Shown here piece by piece: positions 10,121 through 46,254 of a stretch of DNA of 64,000 nt. The first letter of the stretch is position 1, and every line of letters starts with the position of its first letter. The translations under genes and the position numbers were made by a program. The notes beneath the pieces were generated by a model that had not been told where the DNA came from, did not search any database, and saw only the letters and a program-made list of their open reading frames with translations. This DNA is from Clostridium massiliamazoniense (GTDB lineage Bacteria > Bacillota > Clostridia > Clostridiales > Clostridiaceae): NCBI RefSeq assembly GCF_001403635.1, contig NZ_LN879467.1, positions 248,001 to 312,000 of the forward strand, written 5' to 3'.

Positions 10121-10257
10121 TATAAACATAGACTTAATTCAGGTGGAGTTTTGACTCCATCTCAACGCTTAGTCCTAGTTATCTAGAAACGCGAGGCTAT
10201 TTATCTCCTACTCTTATACAAGATAAGAGTATTACAACCTCTAGCTATGAGATAAAA
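10121..10257 (+). repeat. R1 dispersed structured repeat, full copy A
   Basis: It begins TATAAACATAGACTTAATTC, followed by the hairpin AGGTGGAGT-TTTG-ACTCCATCT, then TTATCTAGAAACGCGAG, TTATCTCCTAC, a short stem around GATAAGAG, and ends ACCTCTAGCTATGAGATAAA. The order of blocks is the same as in 26892-27019 and 39166-39300. Confidence 0.75.
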
Positions 10258-10297
10258 AACTCTAACAAAGACATATAAATAGTCCTTTGTTAGAGTT
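10258..10297 (-). terminator. Terminator of the small membrane protein gene
   Basis: AACTCTAACAAAG (10258-10270) pairs perfectly with CTTTGTTAGAGTT (10285-10297); on the minus strand TTTTTATC follows. Confidence 0.75.
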
Positions 10298-10311
10298 TTA
10301 CTTTCTAATTC

Positions 10312-10677
10312 TTATTTTTTTAATGTTATATTTTCATCATCTTTTTTTACAATTTTATAATTTCTTAGTTGATCCAATACTTTAACAGACCCTGCTGATG
10401 CTGCTATCTTCACAGCTGCTGTTGATGTTGATGCTCCAAGAATTCCAATAGCTGTAGGTACAGTAAATAAATTAGCAACATTAGAAAGTCCACCTGATGC
10501 TGGAGTTGCTAAAAGCGCTGCCACTGAAGTTCCTATGGCTGCAATGGCAATTGTCCAAGCCATTTTTTTAGTTGCCTTTATTCTTATGACTTTATTTTTT
10601 AAATCTCCTTCTATTATTATTTCATCCACATTATTTTTTATAGCATTTCCTAAGTCCTTTTCATTATTTACTCTCAT
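10312..10677 (-). CDS. Small membrane protein of unknown function
   Basis: The 121-residue product starts at the ATG at 10677, with AAGGTGGAG five bases upstream; a longer frame from 10725 would bury that site. A charged N-terminal half (MRVNNEKDLGNAIKNNVDEI, then GDLKNKVIRIKATKK) precedes a long glycine/alanine-rich hydrophobic stretch that could form two membrane helices, and a short basic tail. Small proteins of this pattern occur in many bacteria without known function. It has its own terminator and sits downstream of the lipoprotein/two-component operon with a 220-base gap. I do not assign a role. Confidence 0.6.
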   Translation of the reverse strand: MRVNNEKDLGNAIKNNVDEIIIEGDLKNKVIRIKATKKMAWTIAIAAIGTSVAALLATPASGGLSNVANLFTVPTAIGILGASTSTAAVKIAASAGSVKVLDQLRNYKIVKKDDENITLKK

Positions 10678-10789
10678 AACTCCACCTTCTTTAGTAAATC
10701 TTATTCTATTTAAATACAGTTTCAATTTATATTATTATTCTAACCACTATTAATAAAATTACCACCTCTACTTTTCTAAAAATAATAAA

Positions 10790-10844
10790 AGAGAATATAT
10801 TAAATTTATAGATATATTCTCTTCGCCCTTTAGCTAGCTATATA
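10790..10844 (-). repeat. R2-like element, 3' part (d), acting as terminator
   Basis: On the minus strand it reads TATATAGCTAGCTAAAGGGCG and then the hairpin AGAGAATATATC/AATATATTCTCT followed by TTTATTATT. It is a diverged 3' end of the R2 element (which has CTATATAGCTAGATAAAAGGC and then a hairpin). It lies 50 bases past the lipoprotein stop codon and would end that operon. Confidence 0.5.
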
Positions 10845-10894
10845 ATCTTTGTAAAGGTAAAATTAATATATTTATTCTATGTAGCTTTTTATAG

Positions 10895-11287
10895 TTACTT
10901 CATAAAAATCCCTGCTAATTTATTTTCCTTATTAAATGTTGTTGTTAATTGTACTTTTCCCTTTTCAAATTTTAAAACACTTATAACTATTGCAAGGTCA
11001 TCCTTTTCTTGAAAGACCATCTTTTCTATTTTCTCATACTTTCCAAGATTTTTAGTTACCTTTTCCCATGTCTCCTTAATTGCATTAACATTTTTTTCAC
11101 CCTTTACCTCCTCAATTCCATCTACAACTATTTCTTCATATTTTTGATTATTTAATTCATCAACTATGTTCTCTACAGCTTCTCTTAATGTTCCTTCATT
11201 AAAATTATCACTTAATTCTTCCACTCCACAACTAACTAATATTGTTCCTAATAACATTACAACTAAAACCTTGCAAATATTTTTCAT
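10895..11287 (-). CDS. DUF3887-like lipoprotein
   Basis: A 130-residue lipoprotein: signal MKNICKVLVVMLLGTILVSC with lipobox LVSC and acylated Cys20, so anchored on the outer face of the membrane. The rest is a small alpha+beta domain (EAVENIVDELNNQKYEEIVV to the end) of the DUF3887/NTF2-like type often seen beside regulators. It follows the AgrC-like kinase gene by 30 bases and is probably co-transcribed with it. A sensory accessory role is possible but not shown. Confidence 0.7.
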   Translation of the reverse strand: MKNICKVLVVMLLGTILVSCGVEELSDNFNEGTLREAVENIVDELNNQKYEEIVVDGIEEVKGEKNVNAIKETWEKVTKNLGKYEKIEKMVFQEKDDLAIVISVLKFEKGKVQLTTTFNKENKLAGIFMK

Positions 11288-11317
11288 TATTTTTTCCCCC
11301 TAAAAAATATGATAAAT

Positions 11318-12631
11318 TTACTTAAAATCAATTGGAATCACTATATTAACTTTAAAACAATTCTCTTCAGAACTAACCTTCATATTTCCACTATACTTTT
11401 CTATAGTAACCCTTACATTTTGTAATCCTAAACCACTATGATTTTTCTTTGTAGTTTTAAATTCATTTCCATCCTTTAAAGGCTTACTCTTTAATGAATT
11501 ATGAGTATTTATTACAAGAAAGTCATTAAACTTATCTACTTTCAAATATATTGCCTTATTTTCATCAAAGCCTTTAATCTCATCTATAGCATTATCTAAT
11601 AAGTTAGTAAATATTGTTGTTAGATCTATATCCTTTATAAAACCTAAATCAACATCACCTATTTTACAATCTAATTTTATCCCAAGCTTTTCAGCACACT
11701 CTGTTTTATCATTAATAATAATATTTAAAACTTTATTATAAGTATAATATTTCTGTTCAAGCTTATTAAATATTTCATATAAATCTTTAGTATAGGTAGT
11801 TGCTGCTATTTCTTCCCTATCTTTATATAAATTTTCAATAGTTTGAAGATGATTTTTTATATCATGAATTATTTTTCTAGAATTTTTATACTTATTCTCT
11901 AGAGAGTTATAGTATTCATAATTAAGATTAGCTTGTTGTTCGTATAATAACAATTCACTTTTCATTTCATTATTTTTTGATATAGATTCAAATACTTTAG
12001 TAATAAATATATTTAAAAAAATAATTGAAACTACATTAAAAAGCAAAAATAATGAATCCTCAAGAGAAAAATAAACTTGAATATACATAGTAAGTGTAGT
12101 TACATAGATAATACTAAACATAGGCAATATTAAGAAACTAAAAAATTGAACCTTATTTAATTTTTTAATCTTCTTCTTTTTATAGAAGGTTATAAATAAT
12201 CTTGATACAACTAATTTTGAGATTTGCAATATAATTGTAGATGCTAAGAAGAAAATTTCACTACTGTAAAAATTAATAGCTCCTCCCCAAAAAAACACGC
12301 TAATTACATAATTAACTATAATCTCCCATACAAGTAATAAAACAAAAAACAAACTATAATATAAAATATATATTTTATTATTATTATAAAGAAAATAACC
12401 TGCAATAACTGTAGAAACCAAGGTTATTATTATATGAATTATTCCATTATTAAAAACAATAGAACTAATTATTAACCCTAAAGTAAATACCAAATAACTT
12501 ATAACATAAACATACTTTTTCTTATATATGGTTCTTCCAAACTTGCTCATAAAATCAAAGACTATATAAGTAGAAAGAAATGCGCAAAAATAGCTTAAAA
12601 TTATAAGTATTACTTGAAATGAACCATTCAT
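11318..12631 (-). CDS. Sensor histidine kinase, AgrC-like (GHKL, HPK10)
   Basis: 437 residues. About six membrane helices fill residues 1-210, as in peptide-sensing AgrC/ComD kinases. The cytoplasmic part has a coiled segment, the HPK10-type phosphoacceptor SRKIIHDIKNHLQ (His256), the N box NLLDNAIDEIK and the G box HSGLGLQNV. It lies 17 bases behind the LytTR regulator gene. No agrB/agrD peptide genes are nearby, so the ligand is unknown. C. perfringens VirS and AgrC belong to the same class, but I do not equate this with either. Confidence 0.88.
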   Translation of the reverse strand: MNGSFQVILIILSYFCAFLSTYIVFDFMSKFGRTIYKKKYVYVISYLVFTLGLIISSIVFNNGIIHIIITLVSTVIAGYFLYNNNKIYILYYSLFFVLLLVWEIIVNYVISVFFWGGAINFYSSEIFFLASTIILQISKLVVSRLFITFYKKKKIKKLNKVQFFSFLILPMFSIIYVTTLTMYIQVYFSLEDSLFLLFNVVSIIFLNIFITKVFESISKNNEMKSELLLYEQQANLNYEYYNSLENKYKNSRKIIHDIKNHLQTIENLYKDREEIAATTYTKDLYEIFNKLEQKYYTYNKVLNIIINDKTECAEKLGIKLDCKIGDVDLGFIKDIDLTTIFTNLLDNAIDEIKGFDENKAIYLKVDKFNDFLVINTHNSLKSKPLKDGNEFKTTKKNHSGLGLQNVRVTIEKYSGNMKVSSEENCFKVNIVIPIDFK

Positions 12632-12648
12632 AAATAGCTCTTCCCCCT

Positions 12649-13353
12649 CTATGCCATAATACGTTTTTCTAAAAACATATTAAATTCATCCCTAAATTCT
12701 GTAGACTTTTTTTGTGATAATGGAATTATAGCTCCATCCATCATAAAAATATCATAACCTTTTATAGACTTTACATTAAATAAATTAACAGTAAAGCTTT
12801 TATGAGGCATACAAAAACCATATTCTTTCATTCTATTTGCTATATTTCCAATAGTCTCTTTTATAATATAACTTTCTGTTAGGGTCTTTAACTTAACACG
12901 TCTATTTATATATTCAAAATAACATATATCAGTTAAAGCTATTCTAACTACACCCTCTACAGTTATGAATTCTATAATTTCTTCTATCTCTTCACTTAAG
13001 TAAGCAAGAACTTCATCTAATTGATTATGAATATCCTCTTTTTTTATAGGCTTATTTAAATAGCCAAAAGCATGTACACTAAAAGCTAAATTCATATAAT
13101 CTGTATAACTAGTAACATAAATTATTTTTACATCCTTATCATATTTTCTTATAGCCTTAGCAGTTTCAATACCATTCATATTATTCATTTCTATATCTAA
13201 AAAAATAACATCAAATTGTTCTCCCGCACTTAAAAGTTCTTCCCCACTATTGTAAGTATTAATGCTAAATTTAACATCCTTGTACTCCTCTATAGCTTTC
13301 CTTATTTCATAAATAATCTTTTCATCATCATCACAAATTGCAATCTTAAACAT
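12649..13353 (-). CDS. LytTR response regulator, AgrA/VirR-like
   Basis: A 234-residue regulator: receiver domain 1-120 with the acidic pocket CDDDE and phosphoacceptor Asp53 in VIFLDIEMNNMNG, then a LytTR DNA-binding domain from about 130 (EFITVEGVVRIALTDICYFE; IKETIGNIANRM). The start is the ATG at 13353 (MFKIAICDDDE), nine bases after GTGGAG; the frame is open six codons further up. First gene of the regulator-kinase-lipoprotein operon. LytTR proteins bind two 9-bp direct repeats 12 bp apart; such a pair is present upstream of the YhfC gene (10054-10083) and a half-broken one upstream of the DUF1648 gene (14078-14107), making these its likely targets. Confidence 0.9.
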   Translation of the reverse strand: MFKIAICDDDEKIIYEIRKAIEEYKDVKFSINTYNSGEELLSAGEQFDVIFLDIEMNNMNGIETAKAIRKYDKDVKIIYVTSYTDYMNLAFSVHAFGYLNKPIKKEDIHNQLDEVLAYLSEEIEEIIEFITVEGVVRIALTDICYFEYINRRVKLKTLTESYIIKETIGNIANRMKEYGFCMPHKSFTVNLFNVKSIKGYDIFMMDGAIIPLSQKKSTEFRDEFNMFLEKRIMA

Positions 13354-13487
13354 ATACAAATATCTCCACAAATTAAAAGTTAATTTAGGAGAAAGTTTAA
13401 ACTTTTTTTAAATTTTATCCTAAATTTCCAAAATATTCATGTAAATATCATACTATATAATGGTATAAATTACAAATAATCATATCA

Positions 13488-13979
13488 TTATGAACACTTT
13501 TTAATTTTGAATTTAAACATGCAAACAGTAATCATTGCTATTGAACCTAATATTAAGCTAATCATTCCATTGATACTATTATTTCCATTTAAAACTGCTC
13601 TTGTAACCATAAATTGCATTGAACTAAAAATTATAACTAATTCTAAAGCCAAAACCTTCATAAATATTAATTTTATTTTTTGCTCTTTTTCTAATAACTC
13701 AACAACCCTCTTTGATTTTTTAGTAACATGAGCGAAGAAATTGCAAATAATTAAAGCAACAATACTAATAATTGAGTAAGTAAAAATAAAAAACTTATTT
13801 GAAACATATCCCCCCAATATTCCATCAAGTTCAAAGTGAGTTGGTACACTATTAGGAATGTTCCCTAAACTTAAGAAAGTATCTGTTGCTATGGCAACAA
13901 CAATTACTATTGATATAAAATCTATTACTCTATGATAACCCTTTCTTTCCTTATTAATTTTTAAATCACAAATTTCCAT
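13488..13979 (-). CDS. DUF1648-domain membrane protein
   Basis: 163 residues with four predicted membrane helices. The signature SLGNIPNSVPTHFELDGILGGYVSN is the DUF1648 motif, found in SdpI-like immunity/signalling proteins and in partners of YtrA-type regulators. ATG start behind GAGGGGGAA. A LytTR-type site (14078-14107) lies about 100 bp upstream. It is separate from the regulator operon (117-base gap). The function may be protection against a membrane-active peptide, by analogy with SdpI, but this is inference. Confidence 0.75.
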   Translation of the reverse strand: MEICDLKINKERKGYHRVIDFISIVIVVAIATDTFLSLGNIPNSVPTHFELDGILGGYVSNKFFIFTYSIISIVALIICNFFAHVTKKSKRVVELLEKEQKIKLIFMKVLALELVIIFSSMQFMVTRAVLNGNNSINGMISLILGSIAMITVCMFKFKIKKCS

Positions 13980-14077
13980 TTTAATTCCCCCTCAATTCCT
14001 TTTGATTTTACTCTGTTCCCTAGGTTGATTTTATTATATATTTTTAGGAAAAATAGTACAATATTACTTGCACAACA

Positions 14078-14107
14078 TACAGTTTTTAATACCTAAAGTA
14101 CATAAAC
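14078..14107. promoter_or_regulatory. LytTR-type site upstream of the DUF1648 gene, right half broken
   Basis: TACAGTTTT (14078-14086) is identical to the left repeat of the site at 10054, and the 12-base spacer holds the same ATACCTAA core. The right repeat position reads TACATAAAC: after TAC the sequence becomes the 5' end of an R1 repeat. The right half-site thus appears to have been overwritten. Confidence 0.5.
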
Positions 14108-14133
14108 ATAGACTTAATTTAGGTAGAGTTTTA
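14101..14133 (+). repeat. R1 dispersed repeat, 5' fragment J
   Basis: CATAAACATAGACTTAATTT followed by AGGTAGAGTTTTA matches the first 33 bases of the R1 family, after which the similarity ends. It abuts the LytTR site. Confidence 0.6.
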
Positions 14134-14216
14134 TAAATTACTATGATTTTGTACACACTATAAGCAAAAGTTTAGATTGCTTATTAATACACTAACCATT
14201 TTAAGGATGTGATTCT

Positions 14217-14552: not shown

Positions 14553-14594
14553 AATTTTATATAAATATCTACTAACATTCAGATAAAATAATAA

Positions 14595-14632: not shown

Positions 14633-14651
14633 CTTCTTATATATTTATTTT

Positions 14652-16495: not shown

Positions 16496-16506
16496 TGTAA
16501 CTCCCC

Positions 16507-17068: not shown

Positions 17069-17524
17069 TTAATTATTCAACTTAACCTTGAAAATTACCT
17101 TTTCTACTTTTTCTGGCTCATCAACTATTAATCCAGTCATATGAATATCCTCTGGATAAAATATAGCGAAATCACCCTTTTCTAAGATTAAACTCTGCTT
17201 ACTTCTTCCTTCAAAGGAAGCAAAGTCTCCTTCTTTATCATAATTTAATCCTTTAAGATTATTACTAAGATTATAATTTATTCTTTCCTTGCCATCTAAT
17301 ATAACATGAATATCTATATAATCTCTATGCCCTTCCCAGAATCCCTTAGAGTCTTCCTTTGTCCCATAAGAAACCCTATTAAAAAACATATCCTTTCCAT
17401 CAATATCATGTGTTCCCTTTTTGTAATCAATTAAATTATTTGAAATAGCATAATCTAAAGCTCTCAATATATTTTTATCTAGTTCATTAATTACAGATAT
17501 ATTATTTAAATTATTAAATATCAT
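17069..17524 (-). CDS. nanQ: YhcH/YjgK/YiaL-family protein (NanQ, sialic-acid anomerase type)
   Basis: 151 residues of the YhcH beta-barrel family, with metal-site region HRDYIDIHVILDGKERI and GDFAIFYPEDIHMTGLI, followed by the usual VIFKVKL end. E. coli NanQ (YhcH) speeds interconversion of sialic-acid anomers after cleavage, so that the lyase and transporter get the right form. The start is the ATG at 17524, seven bases after AAGGAG; the frame is open two codons further to a TTG. Placed between the symporter and the broken esterase in the nan operon, which supports this role. Confidence 0.85.
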   Translation of the reverse strand: MIFNNLNNISVINELDKNILRALDYAISNNLIDYKKGTHDIDGKDMFFNRVSYGTKEDSKGFWEGHRDYIDIHVILDGKERINYNLSNNLKGLNYDKEGDFASFEGRSKQSLILEKGDFAIFYPEDIHMTGLIVDEPEKVEKVIFKVKLNN

Positions 17525-17540
17525 AAACAAACTCCTTTAT

Positions 17541-17600
17541 TTCATAGCTTTCACTAAAATTCACCTATAGTTAAAACTTTACCTAAATTAAGTTCTATCC
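17541..17600 (-). repeat. R1 dispersed repeat, partial copy I
   Basis: On the minus strand GAACTTAATTTAGGTAAAGT, TTTAACTATAGGTGAATTTT and AGTGAAAGCTATG align with the 5' hairpin half of R1. It lies between the symporter and nanQ genes, inside the nan operon. Confidence 0.5.
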
Positions 17601-17604
17601 TATA

Positions 17605-19095: not shown

Positions 19096-19127
19096 AAATT
19101 CCACTCCTTAAATTTAATTTTATTTGA

Positions 19128-19235
19128 TAAATAGTGTCTATAACACTCCAATCTTCTCCAAAACAAAGTTAAATAGACATGCACATCTAAATACCCTCTA
19201 CTAGAACCTAAATTCTATATTGATTAAATCTCATA
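19128..19235 (-). repeat. Possible diverged R1 copy L
   Basis: On the minus strand only blocks such as GAATTTAGGTTCTAGTAGAG and GAAGATTGGAGTGTTATAGA recall R1 (which has GAAGATAGGAGTATTACA). It is strongly diverged. It lies in the nanA-symporter spacer. Confidence 0.25.
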
Positions 19236-19277
19236 CTATAAAACCTTTACATAGAATAGCAAAATAATAAATCTTAA

Positions 19278-19336
19278 ATGGGGACTTTATGAAAATTATA
19301 CTTAAAATTCCCTGTTTCCAAATCTCATGTCCCCAT
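19278..19336 (-). terminator. Hairpin after nanA (attenuator or processing site)
   Basis: ATGGGGAC (19278-19285) pairs perfectly with GTCCCCAT (19329-19336) around a 43-base AT-rich loop, 22 bases past the nanA stop codon and 180 bases before the symporter start. There is no clear T-run, so it may partly end transcripts or stabilise the nanE-nanA message relative to the downstream genes. Confidence 0.4.
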
Positions 19337-19358
19337 ATCTTTAATTACATATTATATA

Positions 19359-20228
19359 TTATTGAAAATATTTTTCATTTATTTCTTTAATTCTTTTACT
19401 CATAGCCTCTGTAGGTGCTTTCATAGGTTGTCTACAATATCCAGCATCAACACCTTGCTCTTGAAGTAATCCTTTAAGTGTTTGATATAATCCATTTTCT
19501 AAAACATCTGTTATAAAGTCATTAGTTATATGCTGAATCTCTCTCGCCTTTTCTATATTTCCAGACTTAGCTGCTTCAAAAATTTCTTTAGCTCTTCTTC
19601 CATTAACGTTAAATGTTGAACCTATTGCTCCATCTACCCCAAGTACTGTTGCTGGCAACATCATTTCATCAAAACCAGCATAGATTAATTTATCTGGAAA
19701 AGTTTTTCTCATTCTTTCTAATAAATAAAAATCAGCTGCTGTAAATTTAACTCCAATTATTTTATCATTTTCAAATAACTCTCCAAATTGATCTAAAGAC
19801 ATATTTACTCCTGTTAAAAATGGGATTGAATAAATTATCATTTTATTATCAACAGAATTTATTATTGTTTCATAGTAATGTTTTATTTCACTAAAATCGA
19901 ATTTATAATAAAATGGTGTTACAGCTGATAAGGAATCATAACCTAAGTCTGTAGCAAATTTTGCTAATTCAACTGCTTCCTTTAAGTTTACAGAACCAAC
20001 TTGAGCTATAAGTTTAACTTGTCCCTTAGCTTCATCCATAGCAATTTCAAAAATTCTTTTCTTTTCTTCAGTAGAAAGCATGAAGTTTTCACCAGTACTT
20101 CCTCCAACATAAAGACCATCTACTTTACATTTATCAATATTGTGTCTTACTATTTCTCTAAGTCCTTTCTCATTTAAATTTCCTTCCTTATCAAATGACA
20201 CTAATAATGCTGTATATATTCCTTTCAT
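19359..20228 (-). CDS. nanA: N-acetylneuraminate lyase
   Basis: 289 residues of the DapA/NanA aldolase family. It splits Neu5Ac into pyruvate and ManNAc. Seen in sequence: GGSTGENFML (residues 42-51, the carboxylate-binding loop with the GSTGE form typical of sialic-acid lyases), Tyr133 in MIIYSIPFLTG and the Schiff-base lysine Lys161 in IIGVKFTAADFYLLE; then YAGFDEMMLPATVLGVDGAI. ATG start behind AAGGGGGA. 54 bases downstream of nanE, first step of the cytosolic pathway. Confidence 0.95.
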   Translation of the reverse strand: MKGIYTALLVSFDKEGNLNEKGLREIVRHNIDKCKVDGLYVGGSTGENFMLSTEEKKRIFEIAMDEAKGQVKLIAQVGSVNLKEAVELAKFATDLGYDSLSAVTPFYYKFDFSEIKHYYETIINSVDNKMIIYSIPFLTGVNMSLDQFGELFENDKIIGVKFTAADFYLLERMRKTFPDKLIYAGFDEMMLPATVLGVDGAIGSTFNVNGRRAKEIFEAAKSGNIEKAREIQHITNDFITDVLENGLYQTLKGLLQEQGVDAGYCRQPMKAPTEAMSKRIKEINEKYFQ

Positions 20229-20282: not shown

Positions 20283-20954
20283 CTAAATTATTATCTCTTC
20301 TATAAATCTTTCTGTTATTTCCTTAGGTCTTGTAATTGCTCCTCCTACTACTGCTGAATAAGCACCACATTCATAAGCTCTTTTTAAATCACTTGGTGAA
20401 TGTATCCTTCCTTCTGCTATAACTGGTATTTTAAGATCATTACTTAAACGCTTTACTAAATCTAAGTCAGGACTCTTCTCTTGCCTTGAATAGCTTGTGT
20501 ATCCTGAAAGAGTTGTAGATACACAATCAACTCCTAAATTCTCTGCATCTATTCCTTCTTCATAAGTTGATATATCTGCCATTACTAAAATATTATTGTC
20601 ATGTATATACTTTATTAAATCCTTTACATTTTCACCATTAGGTCTTTTTCTATGAGTTAAATCTAAAGCTATCATTTCACAGCATTTACTATCCACTAAT
20701 GCTTTAACTTCCTTCATTGTAGCTGTTATATATATATCAGAATCACTATAAGATTTTTTTATTAAACCTATAATAGGCATATTAGTAACTTTTTTTATTT
20801 CTATAATATCATCAATTCCCTGAGCTCTTATAGCCTTAGCTCCCCCTTCCTTAGCTGCCAATGCCATACGCCCCATTATAAAGGAACTAAATAAGGGTTC
20901 ATCCTCCAAGGCTTGACAAGATACTATAAGACCTCCTTTTATAAGATCTAACAA
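20283..20954 (-). CDS. nanE: N-acetylmannosamine-6-phosphate 2-epimerase
   Basis: A 223-residue TIM-barrel enzyme that turns ManNAc-6-P into GlcNAc-6-P, the product that joins amino-sugar catabolism. Signature blocks: LIVSCQALEDEPLFSSFIMG, GAKAIRAQGIDDI, MIALDLTHRKRPNGENV, LGVDCVSTTLSGYT and SAVVGGAITRPKEI. The start is TTG at 20954 (LLDLIKGG...), six bases after AAAGGGGGA; the nine upstream in-frame codons contain that ribosome site. First gene of the nan operon. Confidence 0.94.
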   Translation of the reverse strand: MLDLIKGGLIVSCQALEDEPLFSSFIMGRMALAAKEGGAKAIRAQGIDDIIEIKKVTNMPIIGLIKKSYSDSDIYITATMKEVKALVDSKCCEMIALDLTHRKRPNGENVKDLIKYIHDNNILVMADISTYEEGIDAENLGVDCVSTTLSGYTSYSRQEKSPDLDLVKRLSNDLKIPVIAEGRIHSPSDLKRAYECGAYSAVVGGAITRPKEITERFIEEIII

Positions 20955-24741: not shown

Positions 24742-24799
24742 TTTTTATCTATCGATTACTCTCTTTATTCCAATCTTTTATAAGTTAGAAATAAAGAAA

Positions 24800-24877
24800 T
24801 ACATGTCCTTATGTAGCTTTCATTAAAATTCAACTAGAGTCAAAACTCTTTCTAAATTAAATCTCAATTTATATAGT
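24800..24877 (-). repeat. R1 dispersed repeat, partial copy H
   Basis: On the minus strand GAGATTTAATTTAGAAAGAG, TTTTGACTCTAGTTGAATTT and TAATGAAAGCTACATAAGG match the 5' half of R1; the 3' half is not recognisable. Confidence 0.5.
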
Positions 24878-26891: not shown

Positions 26892-27019
26892 TATAAACGT
26901 AGACTTAATTCAGGTGGAGTTTTAACTCCATCTGAATACTTAGTCAAACTTATCTAGAAGCGTGAGTTTGTTTATCTCCTACTTATAGAAGATAGGAGTA
27001 TTACATCCTCTAAGATAAA
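26892..27019 (+). repeat. R1 dispersed structured repeat, full copy B
   Basis: TATAAACGTAGACTTAATTC, hairpin CAGGTGGAGT-TTTA-ACTCCATCTG, outer pairing GACT/AGTC, TTATCTAGAAGCGTGAG, CTCCTAC-TTATAGAAGA-TAGGAG, ending CCTCTAAGATAAA. Best match is copy C (39166-39300). An R2 copy begins 20 bases later in the same orientation. Confidence 0.8.
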
Positions 27020-27038
27020 TATATTTTTTTCATCTACC

Positions 27039-27200
27039 GAGATAGCTATATAGTTGCAAAATGCTGTGACTATTGAACTAGCACTAGAAGCTCTTTATTT
27101 TTGAACAATAGTTTCGTAAGTGAGTAGTCACAAATGATGAACTTATATAGCTAGATAAAAGGCAGAGAGGATGTATCTGTAATTTGATACATTCTCTTTT
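27039..27200 (+). repeat. R2 dispersed element, full copy (a)
   Basis: It begins GAGATAGCTATATAG, has an internal pair TGTGACTA...TAGTCACA, then CTTATATAGCTAGATAAAAG pairing back to the start, and ends in the hairpin GAGGATGTATC/GATACATTCTC followed by TTTTT. Full-length match to 3785-3957. The end has the form of a Rho-independent terminator for the GtrA transcript. Confidence 0.75.
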
Positions 27201-27351
27201 TAATTACAATAATTAATATGTACTCTTCTAAAAATTAACATTTTTTTTATCTTAGTTTTATACTTTTTACATATTATTTCTATAAAATAATATTTAACTA
27301 ATATTGATTAATTAATTTATTTTTGTAATATTATTCAAATTAATTAATATA

Positions 27352-27413
27352 AAAATAAATTAAGACTTAGTTTTAGATAGAGTTTTAATTCTATCTAAAT
27401 TTTAGTCAAGACT
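27352..27413 (+). repeat. R1 dispersed repeat, 5' half copy K
   Basis: TAAGACTTAGTTTTAGATAG and AGTTTTAATTCTATCTAAAT then TTTAGTC. The stem TTTAGATAGAGTT/AATTCTATCTAAA differs from copies A-C on both arms yet remains paired. It ends just upstream of the next gene. Confidence 0.6.
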
Positions 27414-27444
27414 TTATTGTAATTTTTAATGGAGGGGTTCTATT

Positions 27445-28020
27445 TTGAAAAAAATATATATTTTATCTACCTATACAGGCACCATGTTATCATATTTAAT
27501 AAAGAAAAAAACAAAAGTACCGTACCCCCATGTTTCAATTGCTTTAGATAAAAATTTAGATGAAGTTTATTCTTTTGGAAGATTACATGTTAGTAATCCT
27601 ATTTTCGCTGGATTTGTTAGAGAATATATTGATGACGGTTTATATAAAAAGAAATTTAATACCCTATGTAGAGTTTACTCTATTAATTTAAGTAATGAAC
27701 AATATAAAACTTTAATAAAGAAATTAACTTACTTCAAAGAAAATGGACGTAAATTTAAATATGACGCCAAAGCATTACTTAAATTTCTATATAATGAACC
27801 GAAAGAAAATGATAAAAAATATGTTTGTTCACAATTTGTAGCTTATTTGTTAGAAGAAGCTGATGTAGATATTTTTTATAAACCTTATTACTTGATTACT
27901 CCTTTAGATTTTTATGAACTAGATAATCTAACAATTGAATATGAAGGTTTATTAAGTGAATATAGAACTAGTCTAAATAAAAGTACCCTTGAAAAAGACT
28001 ATATTTCTATACTTGTATAA
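27445..28020 (+). CDS. YiiX-like permuted papain-fold amidase/peptidase
   Basis: 191 residues. A histidine block KVPYPHVSIALDKNLDEVYS near residue 30 precedes the cysteine block KKYVCSQFVAYLLEEA near residue 133, which is the His-before-Cys order of the permuted NlpC/P60 (YiiX/YebB, DUF830) group. Members cleave amide bonds of lipid or peptide substrates. No signal peptide, so it is probably cytosolic. TTG start at 27445, ten bases after GGAGGGG. Single gene with a bidirectional terminator. Confidence 0.75.
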   Translation: MKKIYILSTYTGTMLSYLIKKKTKVPYPHVSIALDKNLDEVYSFGRLHVSNPIFAGFVREYIDDGLYKKKFNTLCRVYSINLSNEQYKTLIKKLTYFKENGRKFKYDAKALLKFLYNEPKENDKKYVCSQFVAYLLEEADVDIFYKPYYLITPLDFYELDNLTIEYEGLLSEYRTSLNKSTLEKDYISILV

Positions 28021-29834: not shown

Positions 29835-30166
29835 TTATTTCCCCACCCTACTCATCATAAGTAAAAATTTTTTTATATTTTATAATATTTTTATACACTT
29901 ATATCAAAAAAATATAAAATTATTCCAGTAAAGAGATATAATATCTCTCTTTTATAATAATAAATATTCGTAACTGTGTAAAATTCTATATGAATTACAT
30001 TTTCTACTTTATATTAAATTAAGCCTAATAAATAAAGTACAACTTTATTTTCAAATAAAATTATAATAGATATTAAAAATTTTTAAAACTAGTTTTTTAT
30101 CATTCATTATATTTTTCTACAATAATTCCTATAGATACTTTAATTCTAAAATTTATCTTACAGTAA

Positions 30167-30296
30167 TTTATCTAATAACTAGAGGCTATCACTCCCATCT
30201 TCTATAAATAGGAGATAACAGCTTCATGCTTCTAGATAACTGTAACTAAATATTTAGATTGAGTCAAAGCTCCACCTAGATTAAATCTATATTTAT
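30167..30296 (-). repeat. R1 dispersed structured repeat, full copy D
   Basis: On the minus strand TAGATTTAATCTAGGTGGAG, CTTTGACTCAATCTAAATAT, then GTTATCTAGAAGCATGAAG, TTATCTCCTATTTATAGAAG and CCTCTAGTTATTAGATAAA. All blocks of R1 are present in order. Confidence 0.7.
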
Positions 30297-32503: not shown

Positions 32504-35023
32504 TTAAATAGCATTTACATAATTTCCATCTACCCACCCTATATTACCATTATAATTTACTTTATACCATCCATTTGAACTTCCAAGAACTGTAGCTACA
32601 CCATTATTGGGAATTGCTAATATAATTCTATTATTTGTTCCTGCTCCAGTTCTAAGATTTAATCCTATTGGTGAATTAACTCTAATTTTAGATACACTAT
32701 TATTAGTAGTATTGTTAGATGTATTATTATTTGTCATATTTGTTGTATATTGTGCAAATATCCAGCCTACACTTCCATTATAACTTACTTTATACCATCC
32801 ATTTGAACTTTCAATTACATTTACCACTACATTATTAGGTAATACTGTAATTACTGCACTATTTGTTGTTGCTCCTGCTCTTAAATTTAATCCTATTGGA
32901 GAATTAACTTTAACTTTCATAGCTTGATTTTGTTCAGGCTTACTTTCTGGAGTATTATTTTCAGGTTTTCCAGTGGAACTTATTACTTTTGTATATGCAC
33001 CATAAATCCATCCTGTAGTTCCATTATAATTTACCTTATACCACCCATTTGAACTTTCTATTACACTAACAACTACATTATTTGGTATAGCAGTTATTAC
33101 ATTTCCTGATGTACTTGGAGAAGTTCTTACATTTAACCCTATAGGAGATGTTATTTGAACTTTTGTTACTGAAGTTGATCCCTCTGGTTTCACTTCTGGT
33201 TTTACTTGGGGCTTCTCTTCTGGTTTTACTGTATTTCCGCCATTACTTGGATTGCTTACAACTGTTGTGTATTGTGCAAATATCCATCCTGTATTACCAT
33301 TGTAATTTACCTTGTACCATCCATTTGAACTTTCAATTACATTTACTACTGCATTATTAGGTAATACTGTAATTACAGCACTATTTGTTGTTGCTCCTGC
33401 TCTTAAATTTAATCCTATTGGAGAATTAACTTTAACCTTCATTGTTTGACCTTGTTCTGGTTTTGTTTCTGGTTTTACTTCAGGTTTTGTTTCCGGCTTT
33501 TCCTCTGGTTTTACTTCAGGTTTATTTTGTGCTTCAACCTGAACGTAATCAGCACTCACATAAGCTATTCTTCCATTATAATTTATTTCATACCAGTTTC
33601 CTTCTTTTTTAATTATTCCAACCTTATCACCTTTTTTCAATGAACCAATAATTGCTGAATTAGTTGATGCACCTGCTCTTACATTTAATTCATTTGCAGT
33701 TACAACTCCACTTTCCTTTGCTTCTGGTGCTGGTGTACTATTATCTGGTTTATTGGTAGAATTATCTGGATTTATATTTTCACCAGTTACAATTTTTTTA
33801 GGACTTATGTTTATACCATAAACATAACCTGTACCATTTTTATATTGTATCTTATACCAATTTCCTACTTGATCTATTATTTTGACCTCTGTATTATAAC
33901 TTAATGTTCCTAGAATTTCTCCTTTATCAGATGCAGAAGCTCTTACATTTAAAGTTCCTGAAGTAACATTTCCAAGCATTACTGTATTCTTACTTGGAAA
34001 ATTAACTTTGTTACCTGAATATCTATAAAAACAAGTAGTAGGATATTGATGTTGATCTTCATTTTCTGGATTTTGCCCATTTATATTTCTTTCATGATAA
34101 TGTGAATTTCCATAAGCAGCAGCTTGGTTATCAACAATATAAGCTAATCCTTTTTCTTTATCCTTCCATCCCATGAATACATAAACGTGATATGGTCCTG
34201 CAAAACATATGTCACCCTTTTGTATATCATCTAAGTTAGTACTTCTTACCCAACCTCTAGATAGAAGATTACCTTCTAATATTGTTGTATATGCAGTAGA
34301 TGTAGGAATATCTACCCCTATATTTCTAAGAGCTGTAGCTAAGAAATATACACATGTATCACTAGCATTTCCACCATGTAAATTAACAGCTTCTTTCATA
34401 ACAGCCTCTTGATTTGCTGTTGATGATAAGTAATTGTATAATTTTTGTTGAAGCTCTGGAACTTGTTCTTCAGCATATCCACTACCTGATTTGATTGGAG
34501 TTCCTATATAAGCAACTTCAACCTCTCCACCATCAATTCCTTTATTAGAATTTTCTCCATTATTACTAACATTTTTAACTTTTACTGAATTATTTTTTAC
34601 TCCATTACTTGATTCCTTTGATGCTTGTCCACTTTGATTTCCTTGTTGTTCTACTTTTGTAGAATTGCTTTTGCTTTCACTAGTACTCTCTTTTAAATTC
34701 TTACTATCATTTTTTGCTGAAGTTGAAGTTTTGCTATTTTCTTTAGTTATATTTGATGATGAATCTTTGCTAACTGCTTTTGAGTTAGCACTAGCACTTT
34801 CTTCAATATTACTCTCTACATTTGTTTGTGAATTGTTATTCTCTTCATTATTACTTTTATTATTTCCATTATTAGAAACTAAAAGAGTAATATTTTCACT
34901 TTTATTAAGGCTTTGACTAACTGCTGAAGTATTGTTAGCTGTAGTCTTTAAGCTCATAGCTCCTGGTATCATCACTGGTAATGCTGCTGCACATATTATT
35001 GTTAGTAACTTTGCTCTGTTCAT
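32504..35023 (-). CDS. Secreted cell-wall protein: CHAP/NlpC-like domain + six SH3b repeats
   Basis: 839 residues from the ATG at 35023 (MNRAKLLTIICAAALPVMIP), behind GGAGGG; a sigmaA-type promoter at 35088-35116 lies inside the longer open frame and confirms this start. Signal peptide, then about 130 residues of low-complexity Ser/Asn/Lys linker, then a domain with NASDTCVYFLATALRNIGVD and YHVYVFMGWK that fits a Cys-His amidase of the NlpC/P60-CHAP type, then six SH3b modules (typical core GLNLRAGATTNSAVITVLPN; SSNGWYKVNYNG) joined by PEVKPEEKPETK-like linkers. SH3b domains bind peptidoglycan, so this is probably an autolysin or wall-modifying enzyme. Repeats 3 and 5 are almost identical. 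Confidence 0.82.
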   Translation of the reverse strand: MNRAKLLTIICAAALPVMIPGAMSLKTTANNTSAVSQSLNKSENITLLVSNNGNNKSNNEENNNSQTNVESNIEESASANSKAVSKDSSSNITKENSKTSTSAKNDSKNLKESTSESKSNSTKVEQQGNQSGQASKESSNGVKNNSVKVKNVSNNGENSNKGIDGGEVEVAYIGTPIKSGSGYAEEQVPELQQKLYNYLSSTANQEAVMKEAVNLHGGNASDTCVYFLATALRNIGVDIPTSTAYTTILEGNLLSRGWVRSTNLDDIQKGDICFAGPYHVYVFMGWKDKEKGLAYIVDNQAAAYGNSHYHERNINGQNPENEDQHQYPTTCFYRYSGNKVNFPSKNTVMLGNVTSGTLNVRASASDKGEILGTLSYNTEVKIIDQVGNWYKIQYKNGTGYVYGINISPKKIVTGENINPDNSTNKPDNSTPAPEAKESGVVTANELNVRAGASTNSAIIGSLKKGDKVGIIKKEGNWYEINYNGRIAYVSADYVQVEAQNKPEVKPEEKPETKPEVKPETKPEQGQTMKVKVNSPIGLNLRAGATTNSAVITVLPNNAVVNVIESSNGWYKVNYNGNTGWIFAQYTTVVSNPSNGGNTVKPEEKPQVKPEVKPEGSTSVTKVQITSPIGLNVRTSPSTSGNVITAIPNNVVVSVIESSNGWYKVNYNGTTGWIYGAYTKVISSTGKPENNTPESKPEQNQAMKVKVNSPIGLNLRAGATTNSAVITVLPNNVVVNVIESSNGWYKVSYNGSVGWIFAQYTTNMTNNNTSNNTTNNSVSKIRVNSPIGLNLRTGAGTNNRIILAIPNNGVATVLGSSNGWYKVNYNGNIGWVDGNYVNAI

Positions 35024-35087
35024 TAAAAAAAATCCCTCCATAAATGTAAAACTCTTGTTGTCTCTAGAAACATGTTCTTTTTTCTCA

Positions 35088-35116
35088 ATAATAATACTCT
35101 TAACAATTACTTTCAA
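35088..35116 (-). promoter_or_regulatory. SigmaA-type promoter of the large SH3b gene
   Basis: -35 TTGAAA (35116-35111), 17-bp spacer, -10 TATTAT (35093-35088). The transcript would begin near 35080, downstream of the first in-frame start codon of the open frame and about 60 bases before the ATG at 35023. Confidence 0.55.
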
Positions 35117-35416: not shown

Positions 35417-35541
35417 TTTTATCTCATAGATAACTCCTGTAATACTCCTCTCTTCTATAAGTACCTTCCCCTTCTAAATAACTATCACTACACGTTTAGA
35501 CAAAATCATAACTTTATCTAAATTAACTTTCAATTTATAAA
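35417..35541 (-). repeat. R1 dispersed structured repeat, copy E
   Basis: On the minus strand GTTAATTTAGATAAAGTTAT, GATTTTGTCTAAACGTGTAG, then GTTATTTAGAAGGGGAAGG, CTTATAGAAGAGAGGAGTAT and TTATCTATGAGATAAA. The whole order of R1 is present, with the hairpin arms changed on both sides (TTTAGATAAA / TTTTGTCTAAA). Confidence 0.65.
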
Positions 35542-39165: not shown

Positions 39166-39300
39166 TATAAACATAGACTTAATTCAGGTAGAGTTAGGGC
39201 TCCATCTGAATACTTAGTCCAAAATTATCTAGAAGCGTGAGACTGTTTATCTCCTACTTATAGAAGATAGGAATATTACAACCTTTAGCTATCAGATAAA
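39166..39300 (+). repeat. R1 dispersed structured repeat, full copy C
   Basis: TATAAACATAGACTTAATTC, AGGTAGAGT-TAGG-GCTCCATCTGAAT, TTATCTAGAAGCGTGAG, CTCCTACTTATAGAAGATAG, ending CCTTTAGCTATCAGATAAA. It starts exactly at the ribosome site of the acyltransferase gene, on the opposite strand. Confidence 0.8.
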
Positions 39301-39408
39301 TCATCACAAACAATTATACTTCATTACTTTCCATCTAAACCATTATAAGGATAAAATTAACAATAAGTTAATTTGTATTTAGTTTAATTAACCTCAATTA
39401 TATCTATA

Positions 39409-39466
39409 GATGAACCTATATAGCTAGATAAAAGGTAGAGAGGATGTATCTGTAATTTGATATACT
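39409..39466 (+). repeat. R2 element, 3' part (c)
   Basis: GATGAACCTATATAGCTAG, ATAAAAGGTAGAGAGGATGT and ATCTGTAATTTGATAT match the last third of R2 copies a and b. It follows R1 copy C by 108 bases in the same orientation, as in the 26.9-27.2 kb locus. Confidence 0.65.
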
Positions 39467-41839: not shown

Positions 41840-42074
41840 AGTAACTTTTATCCCCCTTATGCTTAATAGTTTCTACATTAAAATATATTCTAAAAAAACA
41901 CTTTATATCCTCTCTGATTTTTAATTATTATATCAAATATTTATGAAAAAATTGAAAAAGTTTACTATTATTAAAAAATTATTAAAATAGAATTCTTAAT
42001 TTAATTCTACTTTTAATAGCTTTCTTAAATTCACTTCCTAAATTTTAAATAAATGTAATTTAAAAGCAAAAATT

Positions 42075-42115
42075 AAAGGATAGTTCAAAATCACATTTCT
42101 TTTGAACTATCCTTT
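42075..42115 (-). terminator. Terminator of the flavoprotein gene
   Basis: A 16-bp perfect stem, AAAGGATAGTTCAAAA with TTTTGAACTATCCTTT, followed on the minus strand by AATTTTTGC. Confidence 0.8.
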
Positions 42116-42119
42116 ATTC

Positions 42120-43511: not shown

Positions 43512-43562
43512 ACTATTGCCCCCTTATTAGTTATATATAAGTTTCTTTGTTCTAAGAATATT

Positions 43563-43667
43563 TTTATCTCATAACTAGTACCTGTATCCACAATTTAAAT
43601 ATAAACAAATACATATCCCTAAATAACTTTTTCTAAAATTCAGATAAAATTAAAAATCTCAGTTTAT
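43563..43667 (-). repeat. R1 dispersed repeat, degenerate copy G
   Basis: On the minus strand CTGAGATTTTTAATTTTATC and TGAATTTTAG, then AAAAAGTTATTTAGGGATAT and at the end TACTAGTTATGAGATAAAAA. The end block matches copies A and E; the middle is poorly conserved. Confidence 0.4.
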
Positions 43668-43740
43668 TTTCTTATCTTACATACAATATAACAGCACATA
43701 TAAAACTTCTCAATTAGGCACTTTTTTGTAACCAGTATTC

Positions 43741-44073
43741 TTAATTGTCACAAATAAGATTTTTATCACTCCAAAATATCATTTTTTCCATAATAGGAAG
43801 TAAAGTTAATCCTGATTCACTCAAATAATATGTTGATTCAACCACATTGTTCATTAACCTTTTATCATTTATAATAATCCCTTGTTCTATTAATAAATCT
43901 AATTGTTGAGTAAGCATTTTTTTACTACATCCTTCTATTGCTCTTTTCAGTTCTCCAAATCTCATTTTTTTATCTTTTATTTCCCATATTATCGCAGCAA
44001 CCCACTTCTTTCCTAATATACCTGATAAAGCTTCAACTGGACATTCATATATGATTTTCTCTACACTATACAC
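43741..44073 (-). CDS. HxlR-family (DUF24) transcriptional regulator
   Basis: 110 residues, winged helix of the HxlR family: YECPVEALSGILGKKWVAAI at the start, MRFGELKRAIEGCSKKMLTQ as recognition region and YYLSESGLTLLPIMEKMIFW near the end. Cys11 in ECPVE corresponds to the redox-sensing cysteine of YodB/HypR-type members, which respond to quinones and aldehydes. GTG start at 44073, six bases after GGAGGG. It is next to the flavoprotein disulfide reductase gene on the same strand, with a 230-base gap. Possible targets include that gene and the pirin-azoreductase operon. Confidence 0.9.
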   Translation of the reverse strand: MYSVEKIIYECPVEALSGILGKKWVAAIIWEIKDKKMRFGELKRAIEGCSKKMLTQQLDLLIEQGIIINDKRLMNNVVESTYYLSESGLTLLPIMEKMIFWSDKNLICDN

Positions 44074-44298
44074 ATTATTCCCTCCACTTATACTTTTTAA
44101 AATTAATATATCATCAACATCTATTAATAACCATGTATTTTTTTTACTTATTATTTAATGCTCAAATGAGATTAATATATTTACTTAATAAACTTATACT
44201 ATATATTAATTTAAATTTACTTTATCTTAAATAATTACTAGGAATTATCATAGGAATATAATATAATCATAATATATTTGTGAGGAGGTTAATTTTCT

Positions 44299-44763
44299 AT
44301 GAACAACACGCTAACTGAGGAAAATATAAAAAAATTACAAGAAGAATTAGATTATAGAATGACTGTAAAAAGGGCTGAAATAGCAAAGGAAAAACTTATT
44401 GCTGCTGCCCATGGAGATAGATCTGAAAATGCTGAATATAAAGAAGCTTGCAGAAATTATAGAGAAAATGATAATAGAATCCAATATTTAATGACTATGA
44501 TTTCAACTGCAACAGTAATTGATAGTGAAAATGTAGATAAAACAGTACTTGGAATTAACAGTAAAGCAAAAATTAAATTTGTTGAAGATAATGATGAAGA
44601 TGTTATAACACTTGTTACAACACTAGATATGGACCCTGAAAATATGTGCATAAGCGTAGAATCAGACCTAGGCAAAGCTTTATACGGTAAAAAAGCTGGT
44701 GATGTAGTAGAAGTTATTGCCCCTGGAGATAAATATACTGTTGAAATATTAGAAATTCTGTAA
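44299..44763 (+). CDS. GreA/GreB-type transcript cleavage factor (paralog)
   Basis: 154 residues: N-terminal coiled coil (about 5-75) with AAHGDRSENAEYKEACRNYR at the tip, which holds the acidic DxxE pair that works in the RNA polymerase secondary channel, and a C-terminal FKBP-like domain (DVITLVTTLDMDPENMCISV; LGKALYGKKAGDVVEV). The core gene greA usually sits in a different context (upstream of lysS), so this may be a second Gre-like protein. ATG start behind GAGGAGG. Single gene. Confidence 0.87.
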   Translation: MNNTLTEENIKKLQEELDYRMTVKRAEIAKEKLIAAAHGDRSENAEYKEACRNYRENDNRIQYLMTMISTATVIDSENVDKTVLGINSKAKIKFVEDNDEDVITLVTTLDMDPENMCISVESDLGKALYGKKAGDVVEVIAPGDKYTVEILEIL

Positions 44764-44777
44764 ATTTCAATTAAAAT

Positions 44778-44852
44778 GCTGTATCTAAGTAACTGGTTAT
44801 ATCACTCTACTTTTGAAAAGTTATAGTATATAATAATTATCTTTGATACAGC
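44778..44852. terminator. Hairpin between convergent greA-like and ccdA-tlpA genes
   Basis: GCTGTATC (44778-44785) pairs with GATACAGC (44845-44852) around a long AT-rich loop. The T-runs are weak. Confidence 0.4.
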
Positions 44853-44873
44853 TTCTATTAATAAATTATTCTT

Positions 44874-46091
44874 TTATTTAGCACTTTCTATGAGCTTTTC
44901 CATAGTTTCTTTATTCATACCACCAGGGACATATTGTGTTATGTATCCCTCTTTATCAATTATAAATGTTGATGGGAATGCATAAACTCCATACTGAAAC
45001 ATCATGGAAGCTCCTTCATCAAAAACTACAGGAAAAGTATAACCATTTTTCTTAAGAAAGTTTTTAATATATTCTTCATTCCCTTCTTCACCTATATTAG
45101 GAGATGCAACTCCCAATATAACCACATCATCCTTATTGTAGTTATATTCTTTATATAATTGTTCTATATATGGCATTTCTTTTCTACATGGAGGACACCA
45201 TGTTGCCCAGAAATTTAAAAAAACTACTTTTCCTTTATAATCACTTAATTTATGTTCCTTTCCATATTGATCATATAAGGTAAAATCTATGGCTTTTATT
45301 TTTTCACTATTTTTCTGACTATTTATCGCCGAGTCACTTCTCTCTTGATTATTTATTTCTTTATTTCTCTCTATTTGATTAATAGTTTTATTCTTTATGT
45401 TAATCTGTTCTATTGCTCCACTATAAGCATTTACAACTATAACTCCCCCAGAAATCACAAGGATTACTCCACCTATGATTTTTATTTTATTCATATATTT
45501 TTTTACTTTATCTAAAGTGCCAAATAATTTATTATAAAATAAAGAAACTAATATAAAGGGCACTATAAACCCAAGAGTATAAACTAATATCAATCCATTT
45601 GAAGACCAAAAATTACTTGAACTTGATGCCATAATAAGAACTGAGGCAAGTATTGGTCCTATACAAGGAGTCCATCCAAAACTAAATGTAAAACCTAAAA
45701 TAAATGCACTTAAAGGATTCATTTTCTTTATTTTTGTACTAAATCTCTTTTCTCTATTTAAAAATCCCCATTTTATTATGCCCATATAGAATAATCCCAT
45801 AATTATAATGATTATTCCTCCTATTAGCATTATTATATCTTTATTATTCTTAAAAAATAAACTTAAAGCTTTTACTGATGACCCTAAAATAAAGAAAGTT
45901 GTTGAAATTCCTAAAACAAAAAATAAAGTATTTTTGAATAAAGAACTTCTAATAAATCTTTGACTTTTTAAATTTTCTACAGAACTATTAGATAATATAC
46001 TTAAATAAATAGGTATTATTGGTAGTACACATGGCGAAAAAAAAGAAAATATTCCTTCTAAAAATAATACTAAAACTTTCAACATTTCCAT
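44874..46091 (-). CDS. CcdA-TlpA fusion: membrane electron carrier with thioredoxin domain
   Basis: 405 residues. Residues 1-225 are a CcdA domain of six or seven helices with its two redox cysteines in FSPCVLPIIPIYLSIL (Cys21) and FGWTPCIGPILASVL (Cys143). A linker of about 40 residues follows, then a TlpA/ResA-type thioredoxin domain with ATWCPPCRKEM (Cys299, Cys302). Electrons would pass from cytosolic thioredoxin through the membrane to the extracytoplasmic CPPC site. With no cytochrome c genes in view, the likely role is reducing disulfides or methionine sulfoxide on exported proteins. Confidence 0.9.
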   Translation of the reverse strand: MEMLKVLVLFLEGIFSFFSPCVLPIIPIYLSILSNSSVENLKSQRFIRSSLFKNTLFFVLGISTTFFILGSSVKALSLFFKNNKDIIMLIGGIIIIIMGLFYMGIIKWGFLNREKRFSTKIKKMNPLSAFILGFTFSFGWTPCIGPILASVLIMASSSSNFWSSNGLILVYTLGFIVPFILVSLFYNKLFGTLDKVKKYMNKIKIIGGVILVISGGVIVVNAYSGAIEQINIKNKTINQIERNKEINNQERSDSAINSQKNSEKIKAIDFTLYDQYGKEHKLSDYKGKVVFLNFWATWCPPCRKEMPYIEQLYKEYNYNKDDVVILGVASPNIGEEGNEEYIKNFLKKNGYTFPVVFDEGASMMFQYGVYAFPSTFIIDKEGYITQYVPGGMNKETMEKLIESAK

Positions 46092-46136
46092 AACTTATAT
46101 TATCCCCCAACTTCACTCTTACTTAATGACTAATTT

Positions 46137-46254
46137 CTCGCATTTTTCTGTCTTCTATAACAAAAAGATAAATAGCTTTCTCTTTAAATAACTACCACTA
46201 ACCATTCAGATGAGGTCAAAACTACATCTAAATTAAATCTAGGTTTATATAAAC
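46137..46254 (-). repeat. R1 dispersed structured repeat, copy F
   Basis: On the minus strand CCTAGATTTAATTTAGATGT, AGTTTTGACCTCATCTGAAT, GGTTAGTGGTAGTTATTTAA, AAGCTATTTATC and TTATAGAAGACAG: R1 blocks in order. It lies between the CcdA-TlpA gene and the MATE gene. Confidence 0.65.

Follow-up and report, generated by a model that had tools for sequence, protein, structure and literature searches.

Many clostridial genomes carry R1, a dispersed and structured intergenic repeat, inserted at the pentamer ATAAA, and in some of them the insertions are recent. The repeat was recognized in a 64,000-nt stretch of the Clostridium massiliamazoniense contig NZ_LN879467.1 (positions 248,001–312,000 of the forward strand; hereafter the window), where a sequence-only reading had proposed either a mobile element or a repeated structured RNA. 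Insertion is borne out by pairs of filled and empty sites, and structure by compensatory base changes. A full copy is about 135 nt long, with the layout ATAAACA, hairpin 1, GTTATCC..., hairpin 2, ...GGATAAA. That reading had exposed itself to a lack of further copies, a lack of covariation or a match to a known element, and none of the three was encountered.

Insertion polymorphism at syntenic loci, which had been suggested as a check, is seen in six filled/empty pairs, four of them clean on both sides. G-numbers below denote genomes and L-numbers the loci compared. In the first pair, L121 is filled and L130 empty (ATTAGC-ATAAA-AAAACAC), and the junctions are clean on both sides. The second lies at 1461287 in G134, where the filled site reads AAATAAT-ATCAA-GTGATTC...CGG-ATAAA-AATTCC and the empty counterparts AAATAAT-ATAAA-AATTCC in G137 and AAATAAT-ATAAA-GATTCC in G135, again clean on both sides. 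The remaining four, at 33160, 54188, 114721 and 157392, are filled in G137 and were set against G134; these two genomes were compared over 200 kb and are mostly 92–98% identical where aligned. Both junctions are clean at 33160 and at 54188; at the latter the left pentamer is ATCAA where the empty site has ATAAA. That at 114721 (left ATAAA, right AGGAA) agrees with insertion but is blemished, and that at 157392 agrees but has about 10 extra bases on the left. The 15 distinct loci (18 sites) compared in that region comprise five filled/empty, five filled in both genomes and five that are messy, partial or without a counterpart (1404561, 20662, 43061, 48027 and 199106). At 1404561 the G137 counterpart lacks both R1 and ATAAA, while at 20662 G134 lacks R1 and the flank alignment is unclean. 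Nine of the 29 pattern matches (four in G134, five in G137) were set aside by eye as non-R1.

The pairs at 1461287 and 54188 also give the polarity of the target. In both, a left ATCAA stands against an empty ATAAA, which indicates that the target is the right-hand pentamer and that the left one moves as part of the element; the other four pairs do not tell the two sides apart. The target-site duplication that the sequence-only reading expected is thus only apparent, one pentamer being the element's own in the two informative pairs, and duplication as the origin of ATAAA on both sides is ruled out by them. That R1 inserts at ATAAA under this rule we hold to be practically certain, with the reservation that the right pentamer AGGAA at 114721 must then be a mutated ATAAA. 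At one locus filled in both genomes, at the end of a gene presumed to be codY-like, the two genomes differ in the left pentamer, one having ATAAA and the other ATCAA. Among 121 full main-type copies, defined as near end-to-end model matches with 60-base flanks and excluding the ATCAA subfamilies, 109 have ATAAAC ends and 102 GGATAAA ends. The flanks are otherwise unselected, except for T at position -1 in 66 of the 121, and tandem R1 copies share one ATAAA.

The folds proposed for the window copies, namely a hairpin, a CTCCTA/TAGGAG stem and a TTATCT...AGATAA pairing, were confirmed, and TTATCC/GGATAA is paired in 99% of cells of a 52-copy alignment. This alignment holds 42 of 46 listed copies (L110, L030, L203 and L200 being removed), together with L111, L097, L094, L103 and six copies from the window. 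Over 47 pairs, 88.4% of cells are standard pairs. The compensatory changes in the hairpin arms noted at the outset extend to 32 of the 47 pairs, in which both sides change, and double-change cells number 203, against 60 in shuffles (0/500 as high) and 27–46 in slid controls. The R1 hairpins are kept by compensatory change, a result that fits DNA and RNA structure alike. In the well-preserved copy of L121, two adjacent hairpins span nearly the whole element, with a z score of -15.3 as RNA and of -15.8 and -13.7 for the two strands as DNA.

The centre of the element has a second possible partner. The left end, ATAA(A)C, can pair with the central GTTAT in 98.1% of cells, and this pairing and that of the centre with the right end are mutually exclusive. 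Five copies have U:A or G:C in place of one C:G pair (five double changes), and none of 500 shuffles reaches the cell count or the score. Left ends of the forms ATCAAGT and ATAAAGT, read off the sequences and not counted, can pair with a central ACTTAT with one base bulged. Covariation support for the left-end/centre pairing is moderate. It is lessened by the 250/500 shuffles that match the number of double-change pairs and the 33/500 that match the pair types, by the mostly invariant columns, and by a slid control (-3) that also has five double-change cells.

The internal parts of R1 are modular. The loop of hairpin 2 carries none, one or two copies of a stem-loop module of about 51 nt, whose inner helix shows three double-change cells in 11 copies. 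A second module of about 50 nt, a miniature hairpin followed by GTTATCC, may occupy the 3' arm of hairpin 1. The modules differ at two loci that are filled in both G134 and G137. Reduced forms were also observed. L324 has, near 11148, a derivative of hairpin 1 only that is nearly a full palindrome, its two ends being ATAAA and TTTAT. Seven loci (L273, L274, L281, L282, L284, L285 and L286) hold R1 right ends of about 16 nt or slightly more, GTAGTCATCGGATAAA, and little or nothing of the rest of R1; such lone right ends may be deletion footprints.

Copies of R1 were found well beyond the window. The nanA gene of the window has its best match, 89% identical, in Clostridium sardiniense among the genomes compared. 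Of 80 nanA loci, a profile of the window copies matched just two, from Haloimpatiens lingqiaonensis and from Clostridium sp. KNHs214. These two genomes hold 41 copies with a mean pairwise identity of 0.958 and 29 identical pairs, from which R1 is judged to be young there. Of 11 relatives found via nanA, one gave a partial DNA match, of 37 bases, and the other 10 none; a more sensitive model detected R1 in G009, G010 and G011 and none in G001, G004 and G005. For the wider search, the model combined the window copies with those of Haloimpatiens and KNHs214. The search of other genomes that the sequence-only reading had called for did yield further copies, in 79 of the 206 genomes covered from a single clostridial family (E<=1e-6), many with at least 16 copies, and in 26 of 391 genomes of a class-wide sample (E<=1e-7). 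Half of the latter (13/26) were first met outside the 206-genome family set, which had room for 300, and so are expected to fall outside that family. A deeper search of five genomes, over at most 150 candidates each, gave at least 113 (G134), 125, 62, 15 and 51 matches. On the 4.63-Mb chromosome of G134 there are 128 occurrences of the 5' piece of R1 and 183 of the 3' piece; the reversed control patterns occur once and four times. An exact 28-base window pattern was absent from genome and viral contigs, and a 19-base pattern from viral contigs. One R1 consensus gave no blastn match in 72,556 plasmid records, nor in phages.

Placement is strongly intergenic: only 2/121 full copies have open reading frames (ORFs) on both sides, against an ORF cover of 77% in the loci. 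A stem of at least 10 pairs lies within 60 bases 3' of the right end in 21/116 copies, compared with 36/600 intergenic ATAAA controls (p=9e-5), and before the left end in 3/113 (tandem copies dropped). On the other strand, some stem-adjoining copies look by eye like insertions into the T-rich tail of a terminator. Two genes that we take to be codY-like and acyl-carrier-protein-like each have a copy at their end. With more than 100 sites on some chromosomes, and with an excess of hairpins, often terminator-like, beside its right end, R1 may reshape the 3' ends of transcripts.

Elements of the IS200/IS605 type move by peel-and-paste: a Y1 (HUH) transposase acts on folded single strands, and pairing with an internal guide determines where these are cut; PATE is the name for their non-autonomous derivatives. 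The mechanism that we favour, with somewhat less than even confidence, is that R1 is a small non-autonomous mobile element moved in this way. The lack of true duplication, the TTTAT/TTGAT ends and a hairpin near each end together form the IS200/IS605 pattern. A one-sided target pentamer without duplication is seen at 1461287 and 54188, and the aligned ends and folds have no terminal inverted repeats and a hairpin near both ends. Read on the reverse strand, R1 would insert 3' of TTTAT and end in its own TTTAT or TTGAT. The central guide, GTTATCC on the R1 strand, would have two possible partners, used one at a time: GGATAA at the right end and, with one base bulged, ATAA[A]C or AT[C]AAGT at the left end. 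A Y1 transposase, perhaps now absent from some hosts, would move the element in trans. Group A IStrons, as portrayed in the cited parts of their description, use the sites TTGAT, ATTAT and TTTAT and follow IS200/IS605 rules, with a one-sided pentamer, no duplication and no inverted repeats (PMC4227781). PF01797 (Y1) matches are present in eight of nine R1-rich genomes searched. The core of hairpin 2 weakly matches a tnpA–tnpB left-end hairpin (18.2 bits in G154, 9.4 bits in G012), and in these matches the reverse complement of R1 runs with tnpA, as the model predicts.

Several results weigh against this mechanism. The same hairpin scan gave an unrelated 12.8-bit match in L122, taken for chance. 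None of 37 Y1 loci in eight genomes is bounded by R1 ends, and the sole full copy beside a Y1 gene, in L121, was rejected as an element end, that copy being absent from the relative L130. G134, with at least 113 R1 matches, has no PF01797 match at E<=1e-3, yet its 1461287 insertion is absent from G137 and G135. The guide is not universal either: the subfamily of L203, L204 and L239, with GAATCC as its centre, is without a TTAT guide but has ATAAA at both ends, so that a TTAT guide rule for every copy fails. Lagging-strand HUH transposition predicts a replication-strand bias, and no consistent bias was found in four genomes for copies among the matches listed: p=0.60 for 57 copies and then p=0.093 for 90 copies in G134 (the genome in which ori and ter were checked, by GC skew), p=1 in G103, p=0.10 in G149, and p=0.03, in the opposite sense, in G154.

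Candidate partner elements were also considered. L112 and L252 hold tnpA–tnpB (IS605-type) elements, 80% identical between two hosts, with a left-end hairpin like the core of R1 hairpin 2. They were rejected as partners of R1, their right ends being by eye unlike hairpin 1. R1 as the end of the Y1 elements of G012 and G013 was likewise discarded, the multi-copy insertion sequence group there (L113, L114, L116 and L118) having other ends by eye. In a search for long elements with R1 ends and an inner gene, 32 left-end candidates had no near right end, a few of them having one 0.5–3.8 kb away; none was recognized by eye as such an element.

Other modes of spread have to be set beside Y1-type movement. 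It is conceivable, if doubtful, that R1 represents a class of structure-only mobile DNA, widespread in clostridia, in which one guide pairs alternately with both ends and so sets the target and both cut sites; such an element would need no dedicated transposase or reverse transcriptase in the cell, would perhaps rely on a host enzyme and would grow by module swaps. An unlikely alternative is that a hypothetical tyrosine recombinase, a host Xer protein or an integrase, exchanges one folded R1 strand into ATAAA, which would again dispense with a dedicated transposase. Folded-strand recombination occurs at integron attC sites and in Xer-using phages, and R1, on either strand, has two strong hairpins that leave some bases unpaired. 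The absence of any Y1 or RVT_1 match in G134 would accord with this, as would the core shared by tandem copies and the AT and AA shared by left and right pentamers; dif and attI, however, have paired binding arms, whereas R1 sites share ATAAA only and their flanks have no such arms. Less probable still is a retroelement of the type of a short interspersed nuclear element, in which a nicked strand ending in TTTAT would prime on the 3' ...GGAUAAA of an R1 RNA, for extension by a reverse transcriptase from a group II intron or another source. The pentamer kept on the right is the one that would pair with the RNA end, and the tendency of insertions to lie near hairpins (21/116 vs 36/600) recalls group IIC introns, which favour terminators. 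RVT_1 matches occur in 19/24 R1-rich and 8/20 R1-free genomes, both sets being hand-picked, but G134, G126, G012, G151 and G175 are R1-rich and have no RVT_1 match.

Two further explanations are each very improbable. A classical miniature inverted-repeat transposable element (MITE) that relies on a DDE transposase and duplicates a 5-bp target, ATAAA, would fit the ATAAA at both ends of most main-type copies and the size, intergenic placement and folding of R1. It is close to refuted by the two pairs in which ATCAA on the left stands against an empty ATAAA, by aligned ends without terminal inverted repeats, and by a pentamer that is nearly invariant across 121 copies where true duplications vary. 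A dispersed regulatory RNA or 3' untranslated region element, kept by selection and spread mainly by descent, would account for the strong covariation, the intergenic placement, the excess of hairpins after the right end and the two copies at gene ends. As a sole explanation it is refuted by the empty sites, that is, by precise insertion polymorphism between genomes 92–98% identical, and the mean pairwise identity of 0.958 among 41 copies from different loci in two genomes also speaks against it. Exaptation of single R1 copies, with a secondary role in transcripts, is possible. The termini disagree with the boundary rules of group I and group II introns, and a remnant of either was dropped on this ground.

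In kind, R1 comes closest to the bcr repeats of Bacillus cereus and to pneumococcal BOX. The B. cereus repeats (BCR) are short and intergenic, as is R1, and bcr1–bcr3 are termed MITE-like in the cited part of their account (PMC3446304). R1 has the bcr1-type end motif TTTAT, the reverse complement of ATAAA. Compared by description, the two differ in host, the first BCR element having been reported as restricted to the B. cereus group, whereas R1 is found in Clostridia. In BOX elements of pneumococci and Streptococcus suis, as described in the cited section, fixed 5' and 3' parts fold together round an optional or repeated internal module (PMC3049150). R1 shares this A-(B)n-C architecture, its hairpin 2 module, present 0, 1 or 2 times, recalling the boxB modules of that description (PMC3049150). 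BOX differs, again by description, in its reported terminal inverted repeats and target duplications (PMC3049150), neither of which was seen in R1.

Non-autonomous IS200/IS605 (PATE-like) elements and group A IStrons resemble R1 in a one-sided pentamer, in TTTAT/TTGAT, in the lack of inverted repeats in the part of the IStron account cited (PMC4227781), and in a hairpin near each end. R1 differs in having a single central guide for both ends, and no autonomous partner with R1 ends was found among 37 Y1 loci. The RAYT-moved REP/BIME repeats are likewise intergenic palindromes, and Y1-type genes of 185–335 aa occur in several R1 hosts. R1, however, is about 135 nt long with exact ends, whereas the cited extract gives a palindrome of 20–40 bp for REP (PMC3733652); moreover, there is no Y1 gene of 185–335 aa among the G154 matches, and G134 has no Y1 match. 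Efa-1 of Enterococcus, Clop-1 of C. perfringens and Clot-1 of C. tetani are also structured intergenic repeats, Efa-1 being a pair of adjacent stem-loops in the excerpt cited (PMC2267715). Clop-1 (93 bp) and Clot-1 (74 bp), as given in the same excerpt, are shorter than R1 (PMC2267715); this comparison is by description, and their identity with R1 pieces is possible.

No prior description of a clostridial R1 was seen in searches of open-licence PubMed Central (PMC) papers, a scope that excludes most subscription papers. R1 stands beside bcr and BOX in kind and is set apart by its one-sided target, shared guide and module exchange. For known short structured repeats, among them bcr1, BOX and Efa-1, the way of moving is often unsettled. 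The mechanism of R1 is directly testable through filled and empty pairs in close relatives, a polar five-base target and covarying ends, and a copy-rich host in which two obvious enzyme kinds (Y1 and RVT_1) were not found adds to this.

Within the window, the six copies A–F of the sequence-only reading lie within a few bases of where it placed them. In a six-sequence alignment with 20-base flanks, the blocks that it listed are common to all and keep their order. Mean column identity over these copies and flanks is 73%, and on this basis the window copies look like old, decayed members of R1. In the last round of an iterated nhmmer search of the window, copies A–F gave E values of 2e-20 to 5e-34. 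There were 12 window matches in all at E<1e-3; the extra ones lie at 24766–24872, 19119–19232, 43564–43659, 17523–17593, 27355–27412 and 14102–14132. A covariance model found eight copies at E<=1.1e-11 (A–F, 24744–24872 and 19119–19239), all of them within its own alignment, so that these scores are partly by construction. Two weaker copies, 43563–43667 and 27355–27452, had E values of 1.4e-4 and 2.6e-4, and antisense matches of the R1 palindromes were returned at E 0.006 and weaker. For the pieces at 17515–17603 and 14102 the covariance model gave E 0.13 and 0.27; their values in round 3 of nhmmer, trained on both, were 7e-9 and 5e-5.

Four copies are full length. Copy A (10122–10257, + strand, 124.7 bits by the covariance model) runs from ATAAAC to AGATAAA, with a terminator-like hairpin to its right by eye. 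Copies B (26893–27019, +, 122 bits) and C (39167–39301, +, 118.7 bits) are followed by the repeat R2, which begins just downstream of B and is present as a fragment downstream of C. Copy D (30166–30296, -, 109.5 bits) completes this group. Hairpin 2 is partly lost in copy E (35417–35540, -, 74.8 bits), and the right end or right part is decayed in copy F (46119–46250, -, 88.8 bits) and in the copy at 24744–24873 (-, 89.9 bits). Decayed copies lie in the gap between nanA and a sodium/solute symporter gene (19119–19239, -, 68.4 bits) and, without a left end, at 43563–43667 (-, 34.6 bits). A left end with hairpin 1 only, with arms GATAGAG/CTATC, occupies 27355–27412 (+, 33.4 bits). Two nhmmer pieces, both weak in the covariance model (E 0.13 and 0.27), are a fragment of hairpin 1 and centre at 17524–17593 (-) and a left-end fragment, CATAAACATAGACTTAATTTAGGTAGAGTTTT, at 14101–14132 (+). 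The proposal that all copies are intergenic holds for the window copies when set against ORFs, but not wholly for the piece at 17524–17593, which overlaps one ORF end by 7 bases. No Rfam family reached its gathering threshold in the window or in 16 related loci (E up to 1), and permissive E-values gave low-scoring matches only. This accords with the inability of the sequence-only reading to name a known family.

The nanA–symporter gap (19104–19359) that holds a decayed R1 is shorter by eye in ten related loci, where no R1 was seen. R2, a second dispersed repeat of about 180 bp, occurs at 3779–3968 (-), 27025–27205 (+) and 39409–39462 (+). Its copies are 85–96% alike where aligned; R2 adjoins R1 copies B and C on their 3' side and is by eye unlike R1. 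One chance-level match to R2 was all that was found in 80 nanA loci. A 97-nt repeat, 95% identical, at 3684–3780 and 5285–5381 lies near two paralogues that carry a permease prefix domain. A large protein with matches to SH3-type wall-binding families is encoded at 32504–35116, by a gene with a fourfold repeat of about 210 nt.

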